64,000 nucleotides of DNA from contig JAJZCW010000015.1 of NCBI GenBank assembly GCA_021828865.1, forward strand, positions 1 through 64,000, read 5' to 3'. Source of the DNA: Bacillota bacterium. GTDB lineage: Bacteria; Bacillota; Bacilli; Alicyclobacillales; SLC66. The translations under genes were made by a program, and so were the position numbers. The notes beneath the pieces were generated by a model that was not told the DNA's origin, did not search any database, and worked only from the letters and a program-made list of their open reading frames with translations. Shown here piece by piece: positions 53,790-59,275 of this stretch (position 1 is the stretch's first letter; each line of letters begins with the position of its first letter).

Positions 53790-53814
53790 GTTTAACTGAG
53801 GGGGAGTTTTAATC

Positions 53815-54306
53815 GTGGCGAAAGAGTCATCTTTTGATATTGTGTCAAAGACAGACATGCAGGAAGTGGTCAACGCGGTCCATCAGGCGCAGAAGGAAAT
53901 CGAAACTCGATTTGATTTCAAGGGGAGCAAAAGTAGTCTAGAGTTACAAGGAGAAGAGATCGTAGTGATCGGTGATGACGAATTTAAGTTGACGAGTGTC
54001 ATCGATATCCTGCAATCCAAATTGGTGAAGCGGAATGTGACACTCAAATCCCTCGATTATGGCAAAATTGAACCGGCATCACAGGGAACTGTCAGGCAAA
54101 CCATCAAAATCAAACAAGGTATTTCTCAGGACGTGGCGAAGCAAATTGTGAAAGCAGTCAAGGACTCAAAAATCAAAGTCCAGGCTTCTATACAGGGGGA
54201 TCAGGTACGTGTAGTAGGAAAAGACAAAGACGATTTGCAGTCTGTCATTCAACTTTTGAAGAGCCAAGACTACCCAGTTGATTTGCAATTTGTGAATTAT
54301 CGATAA
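53815..54306 (+). CDS. yajQ: YajQ-family nucleotide-binding protein
   Basis: The 163-aa protein starts with [18 protein letters not shown] and has ETRFDFKGS and [19 protein letters not shown], clear signs of the YajQ/DUF520 family. Some members bind cyclic di-GMP and affect transcription. Whether this one does is unknown. GTG 53815 follows GAGGGGGAG. It is not at this locus in B. subtilis, which lies downstream of ymfM. Confidence 0.95.
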
Positions 54307-54324
54307 AGAGGTTACAATTACTTT

Positions 54325-54353
54325 TTGACACATTTATAAAATAGCGATATAAT
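54325..54353 (+). promoter_or_regulatory. Perfect-consensus sigma-A promoter of rimO
   Basis: TTGACA (54325-54330), exactly 17 bases, TATAAT (54348-54353). This is the strongest promoter in the window. Transcription should start near 54360, about 78 nt before rimO. Confidence 0.88.
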
Positions 54354-54366
54354 TTCAAATTGGGTA

Positions 54367-54438
54367 ATGAGACCAAAAATCAAGTGGCGGTTTTACCGCT
54401 ACATTTTTTTGTCAAAAAGCTTCTGGAGGAACAAGTGA
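54367..54438 (+). CDS. Putative 23-aa leader peptide upstream of rimO
   Basis: An ATG at 54367 opens 23 codons ending at TGA 54436-54438, which overlaps the rimO ATG (TGATG). The peptide is strongly basic and aromatic: it starts MRPKIKWRFYRY and ends SFWRNK. Codons 6 to 15 span the terminator hairpin and T-run, so a translating ribosome would break the hairpin. The ribosome site is weak (TTGGGT just upstream), which is the main argument against it. No homologue is known to me. Confidence 0.35.
   Translation: MRPKIKWRFYRYIFLSKSFWRNK
54384..54410 (+). terminator. Intrinsic terminator inside the rimO leader
   Basis: GTGGCGGT (54384-54391) pairs with ACCGCTAC (54395-54402), with one G-U pair and a TTT loop, followed by T7 (54404-54410). 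It lies 25-50 nt after the predicted transcription start and 27 bases before rimO, the layout of an attenuator rather than a gene-end terminator. Confidence 0.75.
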
Positions 54439-55769
54439 TGACAGTGCAACGCGTTTCAATTGTCACTTTAGGCTGTGAAAAAAATCTGGTAGATTCAGAA
54501 GTGATGTCCGGATTGATTGAAAAAAAAGGCTATGTGATGACCGAGGATCCGGAAGAAGCGGATGTTGTCATTGTCAATACGTGCGCTTTCATTGATGTCG
54601 CTAAGCAAGAATCGGTGGATACCATTTTGCAAATGGCGGATATCAAAGTGAAAGGGTCCAGCAAGAAATTACTCGTTGCCGGCTGTATGGCTCAGCGATA
54701 TGCAGATCAATTATTGGAGGAAATACCCGAGATCGACGGGGTTGTGGGTACGGGTGAATTCACTCGCATCACTGAGTTGATGGAACGTGTGGAATCTGGT
54801 GAAAGACCTAAATTTGTTGGGAATCCTGTGTATATTTATGATGAGTTGACACCGCGCAAATTGCCGGAACACCTTTCCTCTGCTTATGTCAAAATTGCAG
54901 AAGGTTGCGATCATCAGTGTACGTTTTGTGTGATTCCCAGGATGCGTGGGAAATTTCGCTCACGTCCCATTGAGAGTATCGTGAGGGAAGCCGAAGAACT
55001 GTCGCGTAAGGGAGTCAGGGAAATCAACCTGATTGCCCAGGACACCACACAGTACGGTTATGATTTATACGGTAAGCGCCGATTGGCGGACCTGTTGCGA
55101 GCATTGAATGAAGTGGAAGGCATCGAATGGATTCGCCTTCACTATGCCTATCCCGGGTATTTTACTGACGAATTAATTGCGGCATTTCGAGACTTGCCAA
55201 AAGTGGTGAAGTACATTGATCTGCCGTTGCAGCATTCGGAAGATCATCTTTTGCGATCTATGCAACGCCCAGGGCATCAAGCCCACATTCGTAAACTGAT
55301 TGCAAAAATTCGCGAGGAAGTTCCGGATGTGGTGATTCGCACTTCCATTATCGTCGGATTTCCAGGGGAAACAGATGAGGATTTCGAGAACTTGAAGCAA
55401 TTTGTCCGGGACCTTGCATTTGATCATGTTGGAGTTTTCACTTACTCTGCAGAAGAAGAAGCGCCATCCTCTCTTTTTGCTGATCAAGTAGAGAGCGAAA
55501 TCAAGGAACGCCGCGCAAACGAACTGATGGAAGTCGCGCGTGTGGTGGCATCTAAGCGCCTGGAACGTCACATTGGACAGGTGGTCCGCGTTTTGATTGA
55601 AGAAAAGAGTGAGGAATACGAAGGCCAGTATGTTGGACGCACACCGTTTGATGCGCATGAAATTGACGGCGTAGTGCATGTCATTGGCAATAACCTGACA
55701 GTGGGAAGTATTGTTCCGGTACACATTACCCACTCGCTCGAATTCGATCTTGTTGGGGAGGCCATCTAA
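54438..55769 (+). CDS. rimO: Ribosomal protein S12 methylthiotransferase RimO
   Basis: RimO is a radical SAM enzyme that methylthiolates Asp of ribosomal protein S12. The 443-aa protein has the N-terminal UPF0004 domain with TLGCEKNLVDSE, NTCAFID and AGCMAQR. The radical SAM cluster is CDHQCTFC (C157, C161, C164), and a C-terminal TRAM domain follows. The GCEKN form and length fit RimO rather than MiaB. ATG 54438 is 8 bases after GGAGG. A longer in-frame version from 54360 would start at the predicted transcript end. Confidence 0.95.
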   Translation: MTVQRVSIVTLGCEKNLVDSEVMSGLIEKKGYVMTEDPEEADVVIVNTCAFIDVAKQESVDTILQMADIKVKGSSKKLLVAGCMAQRYADQLLEEIPEIDGVVGTGEFTRITELMERVESGERPKFVGNPVYIYDELTPRKLPEHLSSAYVKIAEGCDHQCTFCVIPRMRGKFRSRPIESIVREAEELSRKGVREINLIAQDTTQYGYDLYGKRRLADLLRALNEVEGIEWIRLHYAYPGYFTDELIAAFRDLPKVVKYIDLPLQHSEDHLLRSMQRPGHQAHIRKLIAKIREEVPDVVIRTSIIVGFPGETDEDFENLKQFVRDLAFDHVGVFTYSAEEEAPSSLFADQVESEIKERRANELMEVARVVASKRLERHIGQVVRVLIEEKSEEYEGQYVGRTPFDAHEIDGVVHVIGNNLTVGSIVPVHITHSLEFDLVGEAI

Positions 55770-56348
55770 GTGAATCTGGCAAATCGAATCACGGTGGCAC
55801 GAGTCATTCTGGTTCCGTTTGTCATGGTTTTTTTGCTTATTCCCACTCCTGGTTGGGGGTGGCATATGGCAAACAGTTGGGTTTCTGGAGGTGCGATTAT
55901 CGCGACAGTGATTTTTATTGTCGCATCAGCCACTGATACGCTTGATGGGTACATTGCAAGAAAAAGAAATTTAATCACTAATTTTGGAAAATTTATGGAT
56001 CCACTTGCCGATAAGCTGTTGGTTTCGACAGCGTTGATATCGCTAGTCGCGCTAAATAAAGTACCGGCTTGGATCGCCATCATTGTGATTGGTCGAGAAT
56101 TTGCGGTGACTGGTCTTCGCTCTGTTGCTTCGACATCTGGGACGGTGATCGCAGCCAGTTGGCTTGGGAAATGGAAGACCGTCACGCAAATGATTGCAAT
56201 CGTGTTACTTATGTTAAATAATTTTCCATTTGTCTATATCGGCTTTCCCATGGATCAGGTAATGCTCTATGTTTCTGCATTGATGACGCTTTGGAGTGGG
56301 TTTGACTACTTCTACAAAAATCGCCATGCCATACGTGCGGACGAATAA
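55770..56348 (+). CDS. pgsA: CDP-diacylglycerol-glycerol-3-phosphate 3-phosphatidyltransferase
   Basis: PgsA makes phosphatidylglycerol phosphate in the membrane. The 192-aa protein has the full CDP-alcohol signature DG-x2-AR-x8-G-x3-D-x3-D (DGYIARKRN to MDPLAD) and several membrane helices. GGGGAGG precedes GTG 55770. It uses CDP-diacylglycerol made by CdsA encoded upstream. Confidence 0.97.
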   Translation: MNLANRITVARVILVPFVMVFLLIPTPGWGWHMANSWVSGGAIIATVIFIVASATDTLDGYIARKRNLITNFGKFMDPLADKLLVSTALISLVALNKVPAWIAIIVIGREFAVTGLRSVASTSGTVIAASWLGKWKTVTQMIAIVLLMLNNFPFVYIGFPMDQVMLYVSALMTLWSGFDYFYKNRHAIRADE

Positions 56349-56362
56349 TGGCGGAGGGTGCT

Positions 56363-57616
56363 GTGAACGCTGAATTTATTGCATTAGGAACAGAAATATT
56401 ACTCGGAGACATTGCCAATTCTCATGCAAGGTTTTTGTCGCTTGAGTTCGCCAAACTTGGAATTGGCGTTTATTATCATGCGGCGGTGGGAGATCACTTG
56501 GGGCGGATTGTCAGCCAATTACAACTGGCACTCGAACGCTCACAAGTGATCGTCATTACGGGAGGACTTGGTCCCACTGATGACGACTTGACGAGAAATG
56601 CGGTTGCAAAGGCTTGCGACTTGCCACTTGTCTATGATGAAGATGCGTTTCAGTCACTCATTGTCCCTTATTTTGATAAACTGGGACGACCCTATCTAGA
56701 GGTACATAAGCGGCAAGCAGAACGGATAGGCGATGCAAAGTTTTTGCCTAACGCGCGCGGGACTGCGCCTGGTCAGTACTTGGAGTGGAATGGGCGACAC
56801 TTGTTCTTACTTCCGGGTCCGCCGCTTGAAATGCAAGGGATGTATAGCGACGAGGTCAAACCAATTCTTGAGCGCATCTCTGGTTCGGGATCGATTACGA
56901 GCCGCGTGCTGCACCTGTTTGGCATCGGTGAATCGGCTGCTGAGGCCAAGGTGCTGGATCTTTTGCAGACGCAGTCCAATCCCACCATTGCACCTCTTGC
57001 AGGTGAAGGGGAAATGCTTTTTCGCATTACGGCTAAAGCACAAACCAAAGAAGAGGCGCTTGCGCTTATTGCTCCTATAGAAAAGGAAATCACAGCTCGT
57101 TTGGGGCAATACATCTATGGTTATGATGAGGATACACTATCACTGGTTGTATTTCGGCGATTGCTTGAGAAGCGTGTGAAAGTAGGATTCGCAGAAAGCT
57201 GCACTGGCGGCCTATTGTCATCGATGCTGGTTGACATTCCAGGCAGTTCAGAAGTGTTTGCAGGAAGCGTAATCGCCTATCACAATGAAGTCAAAGTAGC
57301 GCAACTGGGTTTAAGTGAATCGATACTGTTGAAAGATGGCGCGGTTAGTGAAGAGACAGCAAAACAAATGGCACTTGGCATCCAGAACAGATTAAACTGC
57401 GACTTTGGCGTTAGTGTGACGGGAATCGCAGGTCCAACCGGAGGAACAGCGGATAAACCGGTGGGGTTAGTTTATGTGGCCGCCACAAATGGACAAACCA
57501 CCACAGTGGCTAGGCATGTGTTTCCTGGAAGCAGGATGCAGGTGAGGGTAAGGGCTGCAAAAGCGGCACTAAAACAATTATTGGATTTGTTAAATGATAC
57601 AGAGGTGAAAATATGA
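56363..57616 (+). CDS. cinA: CinA-family protein (competence/damage-inducible; NMN amidohydrolase type)
   Basis: The 417-aa product has an N-terminal MoeA/MogA-like domain (FIALGTEILLGDIANSHARF; VIVITGGLGPTDDDLTRNAV). Its C-terminal PncC-like domain (GFAESCTGGLLSSMLVDIPG; VTGIAGPTGGT) is known to deamidate nicotinamide mononucleotide. GTG 56363, 5 bases after GGAGG, gives the usual N-terminus. ATG 56348 adds five residues. In B. subtilis recA follows directly; here a helicase gene intervenes. Confidence 0.94.
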   Translation: MNAEFIALGTEILLGDIANSHARFLSLEFAKLGIGVYYHAAVGDHLGRIVSQLQLALERSQVIVITGGLGPTDDDLTRNAVAKACDLPLVYDEDAFQSLIVPYFDKLGRPYLEVHKRQAERIGDAKFLPNARGTAPGQYLEWNGRHLFLLPGPPLEMQGMYSDEVKPILERISGSGSITSRVLHLFGIGESAAEAKVLDLLQTQSNPTIAPLAGEGEMLFRITAKAQTKEEALALIAPIEKEITARLGQYIYGYDEDTLSLVVFRRLLEKRVKVGFAESCTGGLLSSMLVDIPGSSEVFAGSVIAYHNEVKVAQLGLSESILLKDGAVSEETAKQMALGIQNRLNCDFGVSVTGIAGPTGGTADKPVGLVYVAATNGQTTTVARHVFPGSRMQVRVRAAKAALKQLLDLLNDTEVKI

Positions 57617-59205
57617 CGACTTTTTTAGATTTTCAATTAAGCAAAAAACTCCAAGACGCCATTGATGAGATGGGTTATGAAGAACCATCTCCAATTCAAG
57701 CTACCTGTATTCCTTTGGTGCTAGAGGGCAAGGACGTGATTGGACAAGCCCAGACAGGTACCGGTAAGACCGCTGCTTTTGGGATTCCCCTCGTAGAAAA
57801 AGCATCAACGGGTCGCTTTGTGCAGGCGATTGTCCTGCTTCCTACCCGGGAACTTGCGATTCAAGTAGCGGGTGAAGTGAGGAGAATCTCTAAATTCAAG
57901 CGGATTAAGGTGCTCCCTATTTATGGCGGACAGTCGATTGGCCATCAAATTCGTGCACTGGAGCAAGGGGTGCAGCTCATCATAGGCACTCCTGGTCGGG
58001 TGCTTGACCACCTTCGCAGAGGCACATTAAAACTCGATCGCGTACAGTCGGTAGTGCTTGACGAAGCGGATGAAATGCTCGATATGGGCTTTATTGAAGA
58101 TATCGAGACGATTTTGCAAGCTACACCAAATGAGCGGCAGACACTTCTTTTCTCGGCCACTTTCCCGCCTGAAGTCAAGCGCCTCGCGATTCGTTACATG
58201 AACAAGCCAGAGCACGTGCAGATGGTGAGTGGCGAGATGACCGTCCCGCTTACAGATCAGGTATACTATAAAGTGCTGGAGCGCACCAAACTTGACAGCA
58301 TGTGTCGGGTAATTGACAGTGAAGACGTGTCGCTTGGCATCATTTTTTGCCGGACCAAACGCGGTGTCGATGAACTGACCGAAGCCCTCATTGGACGCGG
58401 TTATATGGCGGATGGCCTGCACGGCGATATGAGCCAGGCGCAAAGGGATCGAGTCATGAAAAGGTTCCGCTCCGGTGACATTGAACTTCTCGTAGCCACT
58501 GATGTGGCGGCAAGAGGCATTGATGTGGGAAATGTGACCCACGTGTTCAACTATGATATCCCGCAAGATACAGAAGCCTACGTTCACCGCATTGGCCGCA
58601 CTGGACGTGCTGGCAAACGCGGGCTTGCCATCACCTTGGTGACACCGCGTGAATTCAAACTGTTAAAGATGATTCAACGAGACACGAAAGCCACCATTGA
58701 AGGACGGGATCTCCCTACACTTGCGGATGTGGCGGAGCGTCAGGCTGAAATTTGGAGGGAACGTTTGCATGTCGCAGTGCAGGAAGGCGGACTTTCCCAT
58801 TATAAAGCCGTATTGGGGCCGCTTGTGGATGAGGTTGACCCTGTGGACTTAGCCGCTGCAGCTTTGAAATTGGCTTCAGACGGAGACCTTGAAGTGAACA
58901 ATTATGACCAATACGATTTTGGCGATACAGGTGGAGCACCAGGAATGGTGAGGTTTTTTATCAACCTTGGCAGAAGTGCCAAAATGGGTCCCAGTGAGTT
59001 AGTGCGTACGATCTCGTCTGAATCAGGGATACCGAGTTCTGCAATTGGCAAAATTGATATCTTTGATAAGTTTTCGTTTGTGGAAATTGAAGAAGATTCG
59101 GCGCCTTTTGTCTTTGAAGCGCTTCGTCAATCGCGCGTCAACGGTTCCAGGGTCAATATCGAACCGGCAAGGCCTAGAGGCGCTGGTCAATCGTATCGCA
59201 GATAA
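57613..59205 (+). CDS. DEAD-box RNA helicase with DbpA-type C-domain (CshA/DeaD-like)
   Basis: This ATP-dependent RNA helicase is probably active in ribosome assembly or RNA decay. The 530-aa protein has a Q motif, a P-loop AQTGTGKT with K52, and PTRELAIQ. DEAD lies at 150-153 and SAT near 182, and the C-domain carries HRIGRTGRAG. A DbpA-like RNA-binding domain occupies about 430-520 (VRFFINLGRSAKMGPSELV). The ATGA overlap with cinA indicates one transcript. Its position between cinA and recA is unlike B. subtilis. Confidence 0.94.
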   Translation: MTTFLDFQLSKKLQDAIDEMGYEEPSPIQATCIPLVLEGKDVIGQAQTGTGKTAAFGIPLVEKASTGRFVQAIVLLPTRELAIQVAGEVRRISKFKRIKVLPIYGGQSIGHQIRALEQGVQLIIGTPGRVLDHLRRGTLKLDRVQSVVLDEADEMLDMGFIEDIETILQATPNERQTLLFSATFPPEVKRLAIRYMNKPEHVQMVSGEMTVPLTDQVYYKVLERTKLDSMCRVIDSEDVSLGIIFCRTKRGVDELTEALIGRGYMADGLHGDMSQAQRDRVMKRFRSGDIELLVATDVAARGIDVGNVTHVFNYDIPQDTEAYVHRIGRTGRAGKRGLAITLVTPREFKLLKMIQRDTKATIEGRDLPTLADVAERQAEIWRERLHVAVQEGGLSHYKAVLGPLVDEVDPVDLAAAALKLASDGDLEVNNYDQYDFGDTGGAPGMVRFFINLGRSAKMGPSELVRTISSESGIPSSAIGKIDIFDKFSFVEIEEDSAPFVFEALRQSRVNGSRVNIEPARPRGAGQSYRR

Positions 59206-59208
59206 TGC

Positions 59209-59249
59209 AAAAATCCCTCTCGGCATTGGCTTCAGAGAGGGATTTTTTT
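59209..59249 (+). terminator. Intrinsic terminator between helicase gene and recA
   Basis: AATCCCTCTC and GAGAGGGATT (core TCCCTCTC 59214-59221 with GAGAGGGA 59235-59242) enclose a 13-base loop, followed by T7 (59243-59249). Confidence 0.88.
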
Positions 59250-59261
59250 ATAGTAAAGTTA

Positions 59262-59275
59262 CGAACAAATGTTTG
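59262..59275 (+). promoter_or_regulatory. LexA/DinR operator of recA
   Basis: CGAACAAATGTTTG matches the Gram-positive SOS box CGAACRNRYGTTYG at every position. It overlaps the -35 region of the recA promoter, so bound LexA would block polymerase until DNA damage. Confidence 0.88.

Follow-up and report, generated by a model that had tools for sequence, protein, structure and literature searches.

A terminator-like hairpin with conserved stem letters lies between promoter and rimO in one family of Bacilli and is a predicted attenuator

The rimO locus

In the window, i.e., the whole stretch of 64,000 nucleotides that was analysed, rimO is the first of four genes in a row, and a promoter sequence and a terminator-like hairpin separate it from yajQ (NF003819), the gene upstream of the leader. 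The features of the locus are as follows.

54325..54353, forward strand: sigma-A-type promoter sequence, TTGACA-17-TATAAT, matching the consensus at 12/12 positions
54360..54383, forward strand: predicted RNA 5' end at about 54360 (putative start site) and variable leader
54367..54438, forward strand: 23-codon open reading frame, frame not conserved
54384..54402, forward strand: terminator-like hairpin, GTGGCGG-TTTTA-CCGCTAC (from folding and family conservation)
54403..54413, forward strand: A spacer (A54403), T7 (54404-54410) and GTC, which is GYC in the family (from sequence and family conservation)
54425..54429, forward strand: GGAGG, likely ribosome site of rimO (from sequence)
54438..55769, forward strand: rimO, ribosomal protein S12 methylthiotransferase (TIGR01125), first gene of the predicted operon
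55770..56348, forward strand: pgsA (TIGR00560), its start abutting the rimO stop
56348..57616, forward strand: cinA (NF001813)
57613..59205, forward strand: CshA-like DEAD-box RNA helicase with a DbpA RNA-binding domain (PF00270, PF03880)

Against TIGR01125 the rimO product scores 523 bits (cut-off 357), and its TRAM_2 domain covers residues 379-443. The helicase scores 84 bits with PF03880 and 599 bits with NF053631, the latter under the cut-off of 646. The ends of rimO, pgsA, cinA and cshA overlap or abut, and the helicase gene is the last one before a terminator-like hairpin and recA; from this layout, the four genes probably form one operon. The same gene order is found in all 15 rimO-bearing genomes of the host family, with one cshA ending at the end of its contig. 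A relative of the helicase is also present at the same place in two genomes, G091 and G121, which both lack the stem of the host family. The hairpin 3' of the helicase gene and, after it, CGAACAAATGTTTG, which resembles a LexA site, lie at 59209-59275 of the window, before recA.

The initial annotation had described a perfect TTGACA-17-TATAAT promoter before rimO and a terminator-like hairpin with seven T behind it, and both descriptions are borne out. Promoter-like sites in general are at chance level in the surrounding 10 kb (15 found, 14.2 expected), and the one at 54325-54353 is unique among them in matching all 12 positions. Terminator-like sites in the 10 kb around the leader are above chance, 15 against 9.0 expected (sd 2.5). 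The hairpin consists of eight pairs and a loop of three. Folded alone together with its A, it reaches -12.4 kcal/mol (z -5.4), and none of 200 shuffles is as good; the complete leader of 81 nt folds much as its shuffles do (z -0.7, with 37 of 200 at least as stable). When the window was searched for the motif at up to three mismatches there was one match, which rules out a repeat element.

An inverted repeat is also seen, with TTTTTGACA at the -35 element (54321-54330) and TGTCAAAAA past the T tract (54410-54418). By eye it is found mainly in the genus of the window, and it is likely incidental.

Conservation of the leader in the host family

Of the 61 genomes searched, among them that of the window, 18 belong to the host family, and 15 of these have a RimO orthologue. 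The other three (G006, G011 and G013, which are 99%, 73% and 88% complete) have weaker matches only, as do the 41 genomes from the sister family, which belongs to the same order; all these are taken for MiaB- or MtaB-type enzymes. The set also includes two genomes of the class that belong to other families, and one of them has rimO.

All 15 rimO-bearing genomes of the family have TTGACA-17/18-TATAMT (TATAAT or TATACT) before rimO, and in all 15 leaders GTRGCGG-(4-7 nt)-YCGYTNC is followed by A or AA, at least seven T, GYC and then rimO. The family leader alignment, A1, contains 19 invariant columns. Identities were obtained by comparing eight representatives of seven genera pairwise. Across genera the stem is 87.5% identical (343/392 comparisons), as against 30% (1226/4100) for the fourfold-degenerate sites of rimO in the same representatives. 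The promoter hexamers are 96% identical and the promoter spacer 30%, GYC is 86% identical and the next six bases 29%, while the first 16 positions of the leader are 41% and the 16 nt adjoining the hairpin 25% identical. These contrasts indicate that the hexamers, the stem, the T tract and GYC are constrained and that most of their surroundings are close to saturated.

In 14 of the 15 genomes, 72-89 nt separate the -10 element from the rimO start, 22-26 nt separate the end of GYC from the start codon (50 nt in the remaining one), and 10-25 nt separate the predicted +1 from the hairpin, the full range of the last distance being 10-80 nt. The predicted RNA up to the terminator would be 38-54 nt long in 14 genomes and about 110 nt in one. 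Such an RNA, of about 40-55 nt, could itself be the product of the locus, with rimO transcribed by leakage, as each of the 15 copies has a promoter sequence of its own and a terminator-like hairpin. However, the product of this small RNA gene would be poorly conserved outside the hairpin, both beside it and at the 5' end, and the motif is missing where rimO is missing; we consider this origin of the pattern very unlikely.

Counting pairs over the 12 distinct rows of the alignment, no pair has changed on both sides, three of the seven stem pairs never vary, and one pair is open in four rows. Since two-sided changes are absent, covariation does not prove the helix. The helix is instead suggested by its stability, by the T tract and by one-sided changes that mostly keep the pairing, within a sample of seven genera from one family. 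The initial annotation had proposed aligning the upstream regions of relatives and looking for a conserved hairpin, reading frame and compensatory changes. In this alignment the hairpin is present in 15/15 leaders, the reading frame in 2/15 and a two-sided compensatory change in none.

The stems of the family fold at about -7 to -13 kcal/mol. Set against 15 ordinary terminators from outgroup loci, which range from -10.2 to -24.1 kcal/mol, they lie at -7.0 to -11.6 kcal/mol, and most of the ordinary terminators are stronger. A terminator score is below zero for all 15 family hairpins with the A spacer included and above zero for all 15 with it left out; of the 15 ordinary terminators scored in the same way, 11 are above zero. 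For 4 of the 15 full leaders (L004, L007, L008 and L014) the minimum-energy structure, by eye, does not contain the hairpin.

A near-palindromic stem near the RNA 5' end could also serve as an operator at which a protein binds the DNA, or as a 5' hairpin that stabilises the mRNA. However, the spacing of the arms varies by three bases, and a conserved G-T position pairs in RNA only, both of which argue against an operator; the variable loop (4-7 nt) fits an RNA hairpin better than an operator of fixed spacing. Neither an operator nor a stabilising hairpin requires the invariant T7 tract, and we regard both as very unlikely.

The motif occurs once per genome

The pattern that covers all 15 leaders occurs exactly once in each rimO-bearing genome of the family, before rimO, and a scan of the three family genomes without rimO gave zero copies. 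With one copy per genome, a regulon of many genes is ruled out. A covariance model agrees with the pattern: in the 61 genomes it has 15 matches with E-values of 1.9e-5 or better and at least 41.6 bits, followed by a next best match at E 0.09 and 25.3 bits, and the extra matches in three family genomes reach only E 0.16-0.84.

Scanning the collection with the pattern gave 69 stretches. In 11 of them RimO follows no more than 900 bases further downstream, with 73-97% identity across the compared part. The other 58 have no RimO downstream and are taken as chance. Among the carriers with the motif before rimO are the named organisms Sulfoacidibacillus thermotolerans Y002 and Ferroacidibacillus organovorans SLC66. 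Both species are acid-lovers, which fits their listing in the literature.

The rimO leader in other Bacilli

A search of the class covered 398 genomes and found rimO in 100, of which 92 lie outside the host family; the upstream regions of all 92 were examined with a script and in part by eye. In 87 of these loci the best promoter-like sequence matches at least 10/12 positions, and the -10 element is usually 38-50 nt from the rimO start. These sequences often have TATACT and are often continuous with the T tract of a preceding terminator.

Hairpins were called terminator-like at -6 kcal/mol or better, and the leader, from the -10 element to the start codon, was scanned alone. Such a hairpin is present in 15/15 loci of the host family against 6/92 in other Bacilli. 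The six belong to all four genomes of family f14, the sole genome of f29 and one genome of f28, and none of them has the stem sequence of the host family. The covariance model was run on all 92 loci (73 + 19) and none of its matches is convincing, the best having E 0.21. The outgroup RimO proteins closest to those of the host family, at 63-67% identity, are among those of families f14 and f29. The leaders of f14 (L116, L117, L118 and L122, from one genus) have a conserved hairpin of their own, GGTCTGG..CCGGRCC, followed by TTGATATTTAGG, with a poor T tract. The promoter-hairpin-rimO layout is the rule in the host family, is found with other hairpins in two other families, and is rare elsewhere.

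Two minor observations concern individual outgroup leaders. Those of f14 have an ATG at or beside the predicted RNA 5' end. In L115, from a family with a single genome, the rimO leader is about 160 nt long and ends with AAAAAAGGCTT..AAGCCTTTTTT just before the ribosome site, possibly a further promoter-terminator-rimO case.

Before the rimO promoter the picture is reversed, as a terminator-like hairpin is found there in 74/92 outgroup loci but in 5/15 of the family, where by eye the five are long, loose and overlap yajQ. The terminator behind the promoter may have taken over the job of the one in front of it, and would then be a plain insulator which ends the transcripts from yajQ and damps rimO by a constant factor, with no regulation. 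However, the expected place of an insulator is ahead of the promoter, and an insulator needs neither a fixed stem sequence nor GYC after the T tract. We think a plain insulator unlikely.

The leader reading frame

The initial annotation had placed a 23-codon leader gene at 54367-54438, ending on TGATG. The reading frame is there, and its TGA shares A54438 with the ATG of rimO, but its role as a leader gene is not confirmed, since an ATG-started 23-codon frame ending on TGATG is found in only 2 of 15 genomes. Of the attenuator proposed with it, the terminator layout before rimO is supported in 15/15 and control by a leader peptide is not. The ATG follows the predicted RNA 5' end by about 7 nt. 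Starting from a TTG at 54360, the rimO frame likewise runs through the hairpin without a stop, so an open frame at this place is weak evidence.

The two genomes that have the reading frame differ in three of its codons, each time with a change of amino acid; of the 67 codon differences between their rimO genes, 14 are non-synonymous and 53 synonymous. The sample is small; the chance of three non-synonymous changes out of three at the pooled ratio is about 0.012 by our own arithmetic. In a third genome of the genus, a one-base insertion puts the ATG into the frame of rimO. In a fourth, TGA directly follows the matching ATG, and a GTG-started frame of 20 codons ends on the same TGATG overlap. 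Further, since the loops are 4, 5, 6 or 7 nt long, no single frame can pass through the hairpin family-wide. A conserved leader peptide is thus rejected for the family: the rarity of the frame, its non-synonymous changes and its breaks give no support to a peptide of fixed sequence. An extended N-terminus of RimO running through the hairpin was rejected as well, because in some genomes the frame that begins at the 5' end is closed before it reaches rimO. In the 15 leaders, inspection of single-sequence folds by eye found no alternative pairing common to the genomes that could act as an antiterminator.

Leader-peptide attenuators are known from amino-acid operons and from genes of the erm type. 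The leader in the window has in common with them a terminator between promoter and gene and a short reading frame across it. Unlike them, the rimO leader has neither a conserved frame or peptide nor a conserved competing hairpin.

The act of translation could matter without a fixed peptide, if ribosomes starting at an AUG very near the 5' end trailed the polymerase, melted the hairpin and so permitted read-through. Some ATG-started frame crosses the hairpin in 15/15 leaders, above shuffled leaders, under which the chance is 0.18-0.60 per genome; taking a single genome per genus, the joint chance over the seven genera is about 7e-4 by our own arithmetic, provided they are independent, but the genera have a common ancestry. 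An ATG at +5 to +14 is likewise found in 14/15, above shuffled leaders, and over +3 to +14 ATG is the commonest triplet, in six of seven genera. But outgroup families, nearly all of them without such a hairpin, often have an ATG at +3 to +14 as well (7.9 against 4.8 expected, sd 1.9, over 19 families). The frames, their lengths and their stops vary between genera, the frame from the 5'-most ATG continues into rimO in 7/15, and by eye most of the AUGs have no ribosome site before them. Gating by translation would also leave the fixed stem sequence unexplained, and it appears rather improbable to us.

Relation to known leaders

Naville and Gautheret 2010 (PMC2965389) describe the rimP leader (RF01770) as a terminator between the promoter and a ribosome-maturation gene, with a conserved stem sequence, no larger conserved element and, in most species, no visible antiterminator, and infer that a protein reads it. 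The rimO leader is alike in being a conserved-stem terminator without antiterminator before a ribosome-related gene, and its stem letters too are conserved beyond pairing (87.5% against 30%, with flanks at 25-41%). The two differ in their stem, GGGc..gCCC for rimP as given there and GTRGCGG..YCGYTNC for rimO, and in their gene string. RF01770 has no match in 53800-54600 up to E 5 and none in the 18 family genomes; since the model detects only 1 of 14 control genomes (E. coli), its absence from the family says little. The main text of PMC2965389 does not name rimO.

A second likeness is to the rplJL leader of B. subtilis, a ribosomal-protein leader which, according to PMC4538822, is attenuated by a leader terminator. 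This is also a translation-related operon under a leader terminator, as is predicted for rimO. Unlike leaders of the rplJL type as portrayed there, the rimO leader has no antiterminator that we could find and no match to an Rfam leader, and its part before the hairpin can be as short as 10 nt.

At gathering score, Rfam has no match in ten rimO loci, seven of them from the host family, and the best match on the leader is SpF25 with 19.8 of 48 bits (E 1.6). Among the literature matches listed, no title or beginning of an abstract mentions a rimO leader, subscription journals being mostly outside this scope, and the match on rimO with attenuation concerned S. rimosus instead of the gene. The leader appears to resemble a known kind of conserved-stem terminator while matching no described Rfam family.

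A predicted attenuator

We suggest that the hairpin with its conserved stem and T7 is an attenuator that heads rimO-pgsA-cinA-cshA and is read by a protein recognising the stem, a proposal to which we give slightly better than even credence. Polymerase would start near 54360 and be at the end of the T tract some 50 nt later, where most polymerases would stop, giving a released transcript of about 50 nt. The remaining ones would continue through rimO, pgsA, cinA and cshA, in a proportion set by a stem-reading protein that acts in termination or antitermination. Partial read-through is to be expected, since the hairpin is moderate and its U tract is preceded by one or two A. The hairpin is thereby likely to set the output of the four genes.

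As little as 10 nt before the hairpin leaves little room for a riboswitch or an antiterminator. With no conserved alternative pairing or reading frame, conservation of the stem is what points to a protein as the reader. RimO itself is disfavoured as its own RNA-binding regulator, as its TRAM region is acidic in all 15 genomes (net charge -4 to -9). NusA is a general candidate, and the helicase with the DbpA domain is a candidate by its position.

The leader is a short candidate cis-regulatory RNA, present throughout the family and with no match in Rfam release 15. If it works as predicted, one early terminator would be shared by an RNA helicase and two enzymes, one that modifies the ribosome and one of phospholipid synthesis. 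As the stem letters are fixed like those of the rimP leader, what reads such stems becomes testable in named species. It can be speculated further, as a long shot, that the leader represents a new family of attenuators in which the stem is the site of a dedicated antitermination protein, possibly the DbpA-domain helicase of the operon. Such an operon would sense the helicase that it encodes, and so set ribosome modification by RimO and phosphatidylglycerol synthesis by PgsA together.
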